From an uncultured Candidatus Melainabacteria bacterium (GTDB taxonomy: Bacteria; Cyanobacteriota; Vampirovibrionia; Gastranaerophilales; Gastranaerophilaceae), in assembly GCA_949398305.1 (NCBI GenBank), contig CASLVD010000010.1, positions 1-41,367 of the forward strand: a stretch of DNA of 41,367 nt, read 5' to 3'. Below are positions 25,495-29,786 of this stretch, piece by piece. Every line of letters starts with the position of its first letter. Position 1 is the first letter of the stretch. The position numbers and the translations under genes were made by a program. The notes under the pieces were generated by a model. That model saw only the letters and a program-made list of their open reading frames with translations, ran no database searches and had not been told where the DNA came from.

Positions 25495-25728
25495 TTATTT
25501 ACCCTTTTCGCGAAAAATAATCTCATATCCTAAAGTTTCTGCAATATCAGCAACTTCTGAAAACTTTATTGTTTCTTTTTTTAACTTTGCATAAAAATTT
25601 GAATAGCAATCGCTGGTATTTTTACTTTGTGCAATACGACTTACGAGTTTTCTTAACGATAGCCCTTTATAAATAGTCAAAGTTTTTATAAAATCAATAA
25701 TTTTAATATTGTCAAATTTGTATTCCAT
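25495..25728 (-). CDS. Small XRE-like DNA-binding protein
   Basis: 77 residues with the layout of short single-domain helix-turn-helix proteins: IYKGLSLRKLVSRIAQ (helices 1-2), NFYAKLKKETIKFSEV and IAETLGYEIIF. The sequence is compact and soluble. It is divergent from the pilin-like gene at 25853, whose promoter is only about 40 nt from its start, so it could act on that promoter. Its ribosome binding site is weak. Identification is by pattern only. Confidence 0.65.
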   Translation of the reverse strand: MEYKFDNIKIIDFIKTLTIYKGLSLRKLVSRIAQSKNTSDCYSNFYAKLKKETIKFSEVADIAETLGYEIIFREKGK

Positions 25729-25768
25729 TTTTCTATGTTATACTTTGCGCCAAATAAAAACAAACCAA

Positions 25769-25797
25769 TTGACATATTATAGTTGTACACATATAAT
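25769..25797 (+). promoter_or_regulatory. Consensus promoter of the first pilin-like gene
   Basis: TTGACA (25769-25774), a 17-nt spacer and TATAAT (25792-25797): a perfect sigma-70 type promoter, predicting a leader of about 49 nt. Confidence 0.8.
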
Positions 25798-25852
25798 TAT
25801 TAATTACATGACTATAATTTATTTGATTTTAACGACAGAAAGGTGTGTAAAA

Positions 25853-26530
25853 ATGAAAAATATGTATTTAAAATTTGGTTTTACTTTAGCTGAGGTACTT
25901 ATAACTCTTGGGATAATAGGAATAGTTGCAGCGATTACTATTCCCGGACTAATAAACACTAACAAGGCACATAAATTACACGCACAATTTTTGAAAACAT
26001 TTTCTACACTCCAACAAGCATTTAAATTAATGGAAAACGATGATATTTCAATGGATCCAAATACATATGGAAGACGAGAATTTTGCGATAATATATTAAG
26101 CAAATATTTAACCGGCGCAACAATATGCGGAAATTCAAATTCAGCACCCTGCTATAAGATAAACGGCGGTAAACCGTATAAAACATTATCAGGTAAAAAC
26201 ATATCAACAATATATCTGGATGATGGGCAAGTATTATTAAAAGATGGCACCTTATTAATGTGTGAATCTTCAGGACATGCCTGGGAAACCTGGATTAGTG
26301 CGGACATAAACGGATACAACACACCTCCAAATATATGGGGTTATGACTTATTTACTTTTCATTTTGTTGACGGAGAACTTCGAACTATGGGTGATTTAAA
26401 AACTCAATACCAAGCCGAAAAAGATTCCTTATGTGACTTAAATGGAAAATCTGCCCTAAATGGAATAACTTGTGCATTAAAGGCAAAAAATGATCCTGAA
26501 TATTTTAAACGAATTGTTAAAATGCACTAA
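25853..26530 (+). CDS. Type IV pilin-like protein (prepilin)
   Basis: 225 residues. A short positive leader ends in the prepilin peptidase site Gly/Phe, GFTLAEVLITLGIIGIVAAI, with Glu at mature position 5 and an N-terminal methylation-type helix. The body carries several cysteines (EFCDN, TICG, APCYK, LMCES, SLCDL, ITCAL), which suggests disulfides, and a GYDLFTFHFVDGE segment like that in the second pilin. The start is the ATG at 25853 with AAAGG 8 nt upstream. It is probably a minor pilin or pseudopilin of a type IV pilus or type II secretion system; the machinery itself is not in the window. Confidence 0.9.
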   Translation: MKNMYLKFGFTLAEVLITLGIIGIVAAITIPGLINTNKAHKLHAQFLKTFSTLQQAFKLMENDDISMDPNTYGRREFCDNILSKYLTGATICGNSNSAPCYKINGGKPYKTLSGKNISTIYLDDGQVLLKDGTLLMCESSGHAWETWISADINGYNTPPNIWGYDLFTFHFVDGELRTMGDLKTQYQAEKDSLCDLNGKSALNGITCALKAKNDPEYFKRIVKMH

Positions 26531-26622: not shown

Positions 26623-27363
26623 ATGTTCTCAGAAATGATTCAAGGTTTACTAAATTCAGGCGGACGTGGTGCAGCAATGCAACGAGCATCACAGTTAAAT
26701 AATTATGTCAAAAACGCTTCAAAGACAGTCAACCCGCAGCAAAGCATGGCAAATTCGCTTGATGCAATTTACCCGCCATCAGCTGATAATGTTCAATCTT
26801 TTGAAAAAATTCTTGCAAATACTACCCAGTCAAATTTCGGTTCTCTTCTTCTTAATCCAAAATCTTTGAATGTCAGCGGAAGTATTTATGATGATGATAT
26901 TGATACATCAGGAATTACTGATGCAAATTTAAGGAGAGCTATTCAGGAAGTTAACGATGCATCAAGAAAATATCATCCTGAATCCAATAAAACACAACTT
27001 TTAGGCATGATAAATAAAGTTGCACAACGTCACGGTATAGATGAAAAACTTGTACAAGCCGTAATTAAACAAGAATCAGGCTTTAATCCTAATGCGACAT
27101 CAAGAACAGGGGCTATGGGATTGATGCAATTAATGCCTTCAACCGCAAAATCTTTAGGTGTAAACGATCCTTATAATGCGGCTCAAAATGTTGATGGCGG
27201 CGTAAGATATTTAAAATCAATGTTAAACAAATATAATGGGAATATAATTTTAGCACTTGCGGCATATAATGCCGGCCCTGGAGCTGTAGACAAATATTCC
27301 GGGGTTCCACCTTATAAGGAAACCCAGAATTATGTCAAAAATATTTTGTCTAATTACCTGTAA
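26623..27363 (+). CDS. Lytic transglycosylase (SLT domain)
   Basis: Cleaves peptidoglycan glycan strands. 246 residues: a low-complexity N-terminal half (about 1-125) without a signal peptide, then an SLT domain with the catalytic Glu in [15 protein letters not shown], followed by [13 protein letters not shown] and [15 protein letters not shown]. The lack of a signal peptide is shared with FlgJ-like and pilus-associated transglycosylases exported by other routes, or it may need a partner. Placement between two pilin genes suggests opening the wall for a surface fibre. Its stop codon abuts the stop codon of the convergent pilin gene with no gap. Confidence 0.9.
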
Positions 27364-28088
27364 TTAGTGTAAATAATTCATATTTTGATTATGCAAAACC
27401 TGCCATGCACATCCCCAGCCATCACCGTTTTTATTACATCTATTTTCATCTGGACCTCCTACAGGAACAATTGAACCATTACTGTAATAAAAATCAAATA
27501 AGTCTTTTCCTATAGTATTTGGCTGAGATTTTCCATTTACATCTATATAACAAACTATATACGAGCCACTACGATAATTACTATCGCCTCGACACCATAT
27601 TCCGGCACCATTTAACAATAAAAACTTATAATAATTTCCTATAGCATGATTACCGCCATAAGTCTGTCCGTTTAACATTTTATAATTTTTCGGATACATA
27701 CACCTACCTTTGCTATCATCAAGACCGCACTCTAATGCTACTTTTAAAAAAGGTTTAATATTATTAAATATGAGACTGGCAGATTTGGCATCTAGTCCGG
27801 TAATGCCCCAGCCCGGGACTTCTCCGTATTCTTCTTCAGCCATTTTTATAGCTTGAGTTAAGATAGATTGGGTTTCCCGAAGCTTAACAACAGTTTGCCG
27901 TTCAAAATTCTTTTGAATAAGATTTGGAATCGTAATCGCCGCAACAACACCGATGATACCAAGGGTTATGAGAACTTCGGCTAAAGTGAAGCCGGTGTTA
28001 AACTTGAAAGGAGATAACTGAAACGCGCCTAAATTAAACTTTAAGCAATTACCCCCCCCCGTTTTTCTAATTTCTTGTTAAATTTCAT
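27364..28088 (-). CDS. Type IV pilin-like gene, out of frame at a G9 tract (probably phase-variable, OFF here)
   Basis: The ATG at 28088 has AGGAG 7-8 nt upstream. Reading starts MKFNKKLEKRGG, then enters nine consecutive G and stops after 15 codons (28043-28041). In the other frame the sequence is open from the G run to 27364 and encodes NTGFTLAEVLITLGIIG, a full prepilin helix, and a cysteine-containing body (CYIDVNGKSQPNTIGKDLFDF). Adding one G (or removing two) joins them into 241 residues. No ATG, GTG or TTG precedes the helix in that frame, so the prepilin cannot otherwise be made. It is 18 nt after the decarboxylase-like gene and probably in its operon. An assembly error in the homopolymer is the main alternative. 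Confidence 0.85.
28052..28060. repeat. Mononucleotide tract C9 (G9 on the coding strand)
   Basis: A run of nine C in an AT-rich region, located 13 codons into a pilin-like gene. Lengths of 7, 10 or 13 would give an intact gene; 8 or 9 give stops. Confidence 0.95.
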
Positions 28089-28106
28089 AATTTTTCTCCT
28101 TTTTAT

Positions 28107-29144
28107 TTATAATTTTGACAATACATGCTGTAATTTATCTAACTTTTTATTATCAGTTCCAATACCGCATAAAAGCATTGTAGATTTTTCATTAGTCTTT
28201 TCATCTTCAACATTAAAATCTTCATAAAGCATTTCAGAAAGTTCATATCCTGAAATTCCCGGAACTTTTATTAAAACTTTTGTCGGATCATCTCCAAAGA
28301 ATTCACATCCTCGGCATTTTTCTCTAATTTTATCAAGTCTTGTTACAAGATTATCTATTTCTTTTCTGCCTTCACGCGAATTCAAGTACGCAATATTATC
28401 CTCGATTGATGCCAAAAGCGGATATGACGGTGATGTTGTTGTAAACATGCTTAAAGCCGGTTTCACATCAATTTCGCAGTTACAGTGAAGAAGTGCAGTA
28501 GGATTCAAGCCGCCTGCGGTTTTGTGAAGTGATTGAACCGTAAAATCTGCGATATTAACAGCAGATAACGGTAAAAGTTCTGAAAAAGGATATAACGCCC
28601 CATGAGCTTCATCAACAATTAAAAATGCTCCATGACGTTCACAAATTGCTTTTATTTCTTCAATATCAGAAATTATACCCTCATAAGAAGGGGATGTAAT
28701 AATAACAGTTCTAATACTATATCTGCTTAAATAATAATCAATAACTTCCGGCTTAACTTCAAGCGGTACACCCCATTCTTCATCAATTTCAAGGTCATAA
28801 GTTAAAGCTCTTGCGCCGGCAAGTTTAACAGCATTAAAATGACACGGGTGAGAATTTGAAGCTATTAAAACTTTATCACCAACCTGTGTACAAGATAATA
28901 CAGCCGCAATAATACCACTTGTTGAACCGTTAGTCAAAAATGTAGTTGAATATGTATGATAAATAGAACGTGCTGCTAGCTGTGCCATTTCCAAAGCTTC
29001 CTGCGGGTCATGACATTCTGTTTCAGAAATATCCAGTTTGTACATTTCCTTTAAGGGTTCATAAATAAAACATCTCTGTCCGTGAGATGGGGTTGTATAT
29101 AATATCTTATCAGTCTTTTTACCTAATAATCGAACTAAACTCAT
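28107..29144 (-). CDS. Orn/Lys/Arg decarboxylase-family PLP protein, short form
   Basis: Fold type I aminotransferase/decarboxylase domain, 345 residues. It has TPSHGQRCF, LTNGSTSGIIAAVLSC (cofactor phosphate), VDEAHGALYPF (Asp binding the pyridine nitrogen) and the PLP lysine in QSLHKTAGGLNP. Full-length bacterial members are about 480 residues; here the C-terminal domain is missing or very reduced, though the frame ends naturally. With speD in the window it may supply polyamine precursor, but the substrate (arginine, ornithine, lysine) cannot be read. It is 7 nt after the PilZ gene. Confidence 0.82.
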   Translation of the reverse strand: MSLVRLLGKKTDKILYTTPSHGQRCFIYEPLKEMYKLDISETECHDPQEALEMAQLAARSIYHTYSTTFLTNGSTSGIIAAVLSCTQVGDKVLIASNSHPCHFNAVKLAGARALTYDLEIDEEWGVPLEVKPEVIDYYLSRYSIRTVIITSPSYEGIISDIEEIKAICERHGAFLIVDEAHGALYPFSELLPLSAVNIADFTVQSLHKTAGGLNPTALLHCNCEIDVKPALSMFTTTSPSYPLLASIEDNIAYLNSREGRKEIDNLVTRLDKIREKCRGCEFFGDDPTKVLIKVPGISGYELSEMLYEDFNVEDEKTNEKSTMLLCGIGTDNKKLDKLQHVLSKL

Positions 29145-29151
29145 CGTATTC

Positions 29152-29742
29152 CTATTTATTCTTAATCTCTACACTGCGTTTTGCACAAAACTGGGTTAAA
29201 ACCATTTTGTCATGACTTGATTCATATACAAACTGTCCGGATACTGTATATCCGCCTTCACTACGCTTTTCAATACGGATAGGCTGGAATGTACAATTCA
29301 AACTAACAGTATCAGATAACGGAAGTGTAACATTATATGAGCCTTCAATATTAAGATTTTCATTTGTTTTCAATTTCATACCGCCTGCTGAAATATCAAG
29401 TGTTGAAATTTTATAGCAATTGCCATCCATTAATAATTCAAGTTCGTTCATATATTTAATACGGGTATATTGACGTCTTTGTAAGAATTTATGTTTTGCA
29501 GGGCTTGCAATAATCAGGGTCTTGCCATTAATTTCTTTTGCATAAGAGTCAAAATAAAGCTTTCCATGACTTGTTTGGGTATAAAATTCGCAATAAGTAT
29601 CAATCAATACGCCTTCAGGCTCATACTCAAGTTCTAATGTAAAATCTCCTGCCCGAACAGCTGTAACTTTGCCTCTGTTTGCAAATTTAAAATTTTGCGG
29701 AATCATTAATATTTCCTGATTTTCAACAACTAATTCTCTCAT
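29152..29742 (-). CDS. PilZ-domain protein (YcgR-like, probable c-di-GMP receptor)
   Basis: 196 residues. An N-terminal beta-rich domain (about 1-90) of the YcgR-N type is followed by a PilZ domain with both binding motifs: RxxxR in RRQYTR and DxSxxG in DISAGGMKL. Cytosolic. The start is the ATG at 29742 with AAAGGG 5 nt upstream; an upstream in-frame ATG would lie in the predicted promoter palindrome and is rejected. First gene of an operon with the decarboxylase-like gene and the phase-variable pilin, linking c-di-GMP signalling to the pilus by position. Confidence 0.87.
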   Translation of the reverse strand: MRELVVENQEILMIPQNFKFANRGKVTAVRAGDFTLELEYEPEGVLIDTYCEFYTQTSHGKLYFDSYAKEINGKTLIIASPAKHKFLQRRQYTRIKYMNELELLMDGNCYKISTLDISAGGMKLKTNENLNIEGSYNVTLPLSDTVSLNCTFQPIRIEKRSEGGYTVSGQFVYESSHDKMVLTQFCAKRSVEIKNK

Positions 29743-29768
29743 CTTTACCCTTTCTAAATATACCTTTA

Positions 29769-29786
29769 TAGTGTAATTATACACTA
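29769..29786 (-). promoter_or_regulatory. Palindrome overlapping the -10 of the PilZ operon
   Basis: TAGTGTA and TACACTA (7-bp arms, 4-nt centre) span a minus-strand TATAAT at 29781-29776. A repressor bound here would block the promoter. The -35 is not obvious. Confidence 0.5.

Follow-up and report, generated by a model that had tools for sequence, protein, structure and literature searches.

Poly-G switching has been studied mainly in a few pathogens. In Neisseria, the type IV pilus genes pilC1 and pilC2 carry a poly-G/C tract (G9-20) in the reading frame, the length of which turns the gene ON or OFF (PMC5953494), whereas the opa family consists of many dispersed paralogous surface adhesins, each with its own pentamer repeat switch (PMC3745409). 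The pilE/pilS system of antigenic variation draws on a large pilin repertoire, in which the pilS copies are silent donors and repeats were found in 23 of 607 pilS alleles. In the Campylobacter jejuni phasome, G8-G11 tracts lie in ORFs and are held mainly at G9 and G10 (PMC8355987). For Gastranaerophilales or Vampirovibrionia, we found no description of phase variation in the papers searched, which did not include most subscription journals; pilus genes of the group are mentioned without switching (PMC5877343). Here, we describe an arrangement in one family of this lineage of common, uncultured gut bacteria with few known surface functions, in which runs of 8-13 Gs lie in the leaders of tens of type IV prepilin genes and most assembled alleles are out of frame.

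The window, i.e., the whole stretch of DNA analysed, comprises 41,367 nucleotides of an uncultured Candidatus Melainabacteria bacterium (Gastranaerophilaceae; assembly GCA_949398305.1, contig CASLVD010000010.1, positions 1 to 41,367). On the minus strand, an AAGGAG is followed after 7 nt by an ATG, 25 more nt and a run of nine Gs, which continues into TAATTGCTTAA. The ATG frame reads MKFNKKLEKRGGVIA and then stops, whereas the other frame, which carries GFTLAEVLITLGIIGVVAAITIPNLI, encodes a complete prepilin but has no ATG, GTG or TTG between the upstream stop and the helix. One more G gives 241 residues, and two fewer would also be in frame. The initial annotation, which had proposed a phase-variable pilin with a G9 tract near its start, is right in its coordinates and counts. 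The locus and its surroundings contain the following features:

28096-28101, minus strand: Shine-Dalgarno sequence AAGGAG, 7 nt before the ATG, with the same layout in the other copies of the genome
28061-28088, minus strand: start codon (28088-28086) and pre-tract leader (ATGAAATTTAACAAGAAATTAGAAAAAC), shared with about 27 other loci of the genome
28052-28060, minus strand: G9 tract, the proposed length switch, OFF in the assembled allele
28041-28088, minus strand: OFF-frame mini-ORF of 15 codons and stop
27364-28051, minus strand: intact prepilin reading frame downstream of the tract, with post-tract leader, helix, 200-residue head and stop
27931-27996, minus strand: prepilin cleavage/methylation motif and hydrophobic helix (PF07963)
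28107-29144, minus strand: Orn/Lys/Arg decarboxylase-like gene (PF01276), the upstream flank of the slot, present with or without the pilin in relatives
29152-29784, minus strand: PilZ-domain protein (PF07238, 9.7e-11), first gene of the same-strand cluster
26623-27363, plus strand: SLT transglycosylase gene (PF01464), the convergent downstream flank of the slot
25709-26530, plus strand: second prepilin of the window, without a G tract, which served as an internal comparison

The product of the downstream frame is a type IV pilin by motif and helix, matching PF07963 N_methyl (4.7e-5; 23.2 bits, cut-off 21.2) and TIGR02532 (23.3 bits, cut-off 16.3). Sequence profiles hit solved pilins over the N-terminal helix. 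An AlphaFold2 model built on 63 family members (mean pLDDT 90.6) predicts a helix at residues 23-75 at high pLDDT and a mainly beta head. However, the whole model has no significant PDB match, and the head fold remains unassigned.

The tract is one case of a much larger system. G9 is the longest homopolymer in the window, where A and T reach 8. The window's own genome (hereafter G000; 1.92 Mb in 109 contigs) contains 36 G-runs of 8 or more, whereas 4.8 are expected from dinucleotide frequencies, and 34 runs of 9 or more, against 0.9 expected over both strands. Of the 36 runs, 26 sit between the start codon and the helix of a prepilin gene, 4 of them with the start codon cut off by a contig end, and 2 more lie in the same leader cut before the helix; all 28 are on the coding strand. 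The copies share a layout consisting of the SD, the ATG, about 25 nt, G8-G12, a post-tract segment, and the helix at 28-280 nt. Four contigs begin or end in a tract, as reported for phase-variable poly-G genes (PMC10327513). A profile search found 105 PF07963 sites in G000, but at least 4 tract-bearing prepilin genes (C14:28682, C25:11915, C28:2272 and C80:983, given as contig:position) were not among these hits; the genome has at least 105 prepilin-type genes. In many of the pilins (e.g., loci L034, L038, L044 and L095), a repeated block (THVAMPPV..., EHRRSxIDV...PTPAEEGFTLAEVLITL) lies between a first partial FTLAE motif and the real helix, like an inserted or duplicated leader, and several contigs start inside it. 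The long leaders of L037, L070, L111, L121 and L124 contain, in translation, VILNLIQDLLSNRFRLGGRND-like text reminiscent of dispersed palindromic repeats read through as coding sequence. Other G-runs of the genome include G10, G9 and G11 runs at the 3' ends of surface-glycan-like genes (C2:32611, C2:35093 and C11:13230; weak MptE-like, CTP_transf_3 and Acyl_transf_3 matches), which are possible further phase-variable or C-terminus-switching genes. G-runs were also noted inside two related long ORFs, one of which (C29:16972) is broken at G10 and open for at least 599 codons with one base fewer, while the other (C3:3727) is open.

A search with a frame-neutral motif showed that the arrangement recurs in 74 of 383 genomes of the order, all in the window's family, with the reversed-pattern control at 0 throughout. 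Among 244 genomes of the phylum, 43 match, again only in that family, and none of about 140 other cyanobacterial genomes does. A looser architecture search gave a few hits in one other family of the order (genomes G043 and G053). In the relative G022, 31 of 32 tracts lie on the plus strand of the contigs, across 10 contigs, whereas other genomes are mixed.

Over 224 unambiguous tracts in 56 genomes, only 21 are in frame (9%, against 33% by chance), whereas 115 need +1 and 88 need -1 (p = 5e-17 under a neutral three-state model, although copies within a genome are not independent). OFF is the majority state in 49 genomes and ON in 1. In G000, 22 tracts can be scored, of which 15 are G9 needing one more base, 3 are G10 and in frame, and 4 are other out-of-frame cases. 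All 192 OFF copies examined end within 11-33 residues, and in 153 of them, including that of the window, there is no ATG, GTG or TTG in the pilin frame between the tract and the helix. The remaining 39 have one, so leaky expression is possible in a minority, but an alternative start or re-initiation does not account for the pattern. Tract length is characteristic of the genome, with G9 in the relative G068 (12 of 12 scored), G8 in G022 (22 of 25) and G11 in G006 (18 of 27). Sequencing or assembly error, whereby the true tract would be one base different and all copies in frame, deserves mention, given that G-homopolymers are error-prone and one assembly per species was used. Nevertheless, the error would have to be -1 in some genomes and +1 in others, yet consistent within each, an assembler cannot favor OFF, and contig names suggest short-read assemblers (SPAdes- or MEGAHIT-style) for several genomes. 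We therefore regard error as very unlikely.

Although the assembled frames are broken, 180 of 182 complete OFF ORFs are intact, with at least 100 codons after the helix. The window pilin and its G068 orthologue are both G9 and OFF, yet dN/dS is 0.069/0.438 = 0.16. Other well-aligned orthologous pairs, mostly OFF/OFF, give 0.23, 0.10, 0.25, 0.07, 0.14 and 0.16; more distant pairs have saturated dS and were not used, and same-contig pairs at 100% identity, which are overlapping flanks of tandem genes, were likewise excluded. Moreover, orthologous or near-identical copies differ in tract length or state. The G000 copy on contig C31 is G10 and ON, against G9 and OFF in G068; that on C28 is G11, against G9 in G068, with the upstream flank and leader 96% identical; a G12 OFF copy in CALVBD faces a G11 ON copy in CALVBB; and 2 copies in G034 that are 95-97% identical are G10 ON and G11 OFF. 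The genes are therefore kept as proteins although the assembled alleles cannot make them, and the tract is where they change. The possibility that homologues lack the run and this copy is simply decayed is contradicted by these results, because the break is at the homopolymer and the run sits in the same place in 25 other prepilin genes of this genome and in over 200 in relatives.

Collectively, these results support the interpretation in the initial annotation, and we consider, with reasonably good confidence, that the locus is a poly-G contingency switch, one of about 26-28 in this genome, and that the system is best explained as default-OFF slipped-strand phase variation of a dispersed pilin repertoire. 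Presumably, strand slippage during replication gains or loses a G, so that a small fraction of cells makes any given pilin while most keep it off, although in the absence of read data reversible switching remains an inference. Each cell would then display one or a few pilins of a large repertoire, and the set would drift between lineages, possibly contributing to adhesion diversity and to phage or immune escape. The model predicts large cell-to-cell surface diversity and explains why these genes look broken or missing in annotation. The main difficulty is that the excess of OFF alleles and the uniform tract length within genomes are not what a freely running two-state switch predicts. Selection against the ON state, rare slippage under working mismatch repair, or slippage at the RNA level could each account for them. 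An intact MutS is present, which argues against loss of mismatch repair as the cause, and slippage may thus be slower than in C. jejuni.

The main rival is programmed slippage without DNA change, in which RNA polymerase or the ribosome slips on the G-run, so that the OFF DNA state is the normal one and a fixed fraction of transcripts or ribosomes yields pilin, setting low expression. The OFF majority and the uniform lengths are what a conserved recoding site would show. However, the needed shift is +1 in some genomes and -1 in others, which does not suit a directional ribosomal frameshift, in-frame alleles occur at about 9% of loci, and orthologues differ in length and state. Furthermore, a frameshift survey uses repeats near the shift as a mark of phase variation (PMC3711429). 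We consider this alternative unlikely, though not negligible.

The genomic context indicates that the pilin is a guest at its site. It occupies 27365-28103 between the PF01276 and SLT genes, which adjoin directly in the relatives G009, G005, G002 and G025, whereas in G035, G059 and G022 the slot holds a G-tract pilin with a very different head (dN about 0.65-0.8). The PilZ gene, which the initial annotation noted as part of the operon, is real and lies two genes upstream on the same strand, but its link to the pilin is weak, because the slot is empty in several relatives. A viral or mobile origin was not supported, with no match among viral contigs (viral_contigs). Leaders are more alike within genomes than between them (0.64 against 0.54 in G000, 0.81 against 0.56 in G034), while heads in G000 are not (0.17 and 0.17). 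This suggests that leaders are exchanged or homogenized separately from heads, although in G068 and CAOJDT the leader difference is small, and in G034 the heads are alike too. These observations could also fit a silent reservoir, in which intact pilin genes are held out of frame as donors for recombination into expressed copies and the tract is a lock rather than a switch. Nevertheless, each copy has its own SD and ATG, some copies are in frame, and a homopolymer is a poor lock; this reading therefore appears improbable, although no donor relation was tested. A more far-reaching possibility, which we put forward only tentatively, is a family-wide, default-OFF, few-of-many display system, in which one exchangeable leader cassette, kept alike within each genome and set one base out of frame, fronts tens of unrelated pilin heads that come and go at fixed chromosomal slots, with each cell showing only a few pilins chosen by rare slippage in DNA (or in RNA).

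Comparison with the described systems shows both similarities and differences. As in Neisseria pilC1/pilC2, a poly-G tract sets the frame of a type IV pilus gene, but PilC is a tip/retraction protein with one or two copies, whereas here the tract is in the prepilins themselves, in tens of dispersed genes of a non-photosynthetic cyanobacterial lineage. The opa family likewise comprises many dispersed paralogues with individual repeat switches, but differs in repeat unit, protein class and copy number, and here the OFF state dominates in assemblies. A large pilin repertoire is shared with pilE/pilS, yet the pilS copies are silent donors, whereas the copies described here have their own SD and ATG and a conserved G-tract. 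Finally, the tracts resemble those of the C. jejuni phasome in length and in their position within ORFs, but C. jejuni lacks functional mismatch repair, whereas MutS is present here, and its targets are mainly glycan and other surface enzymes rather than, as here, a pilin family.
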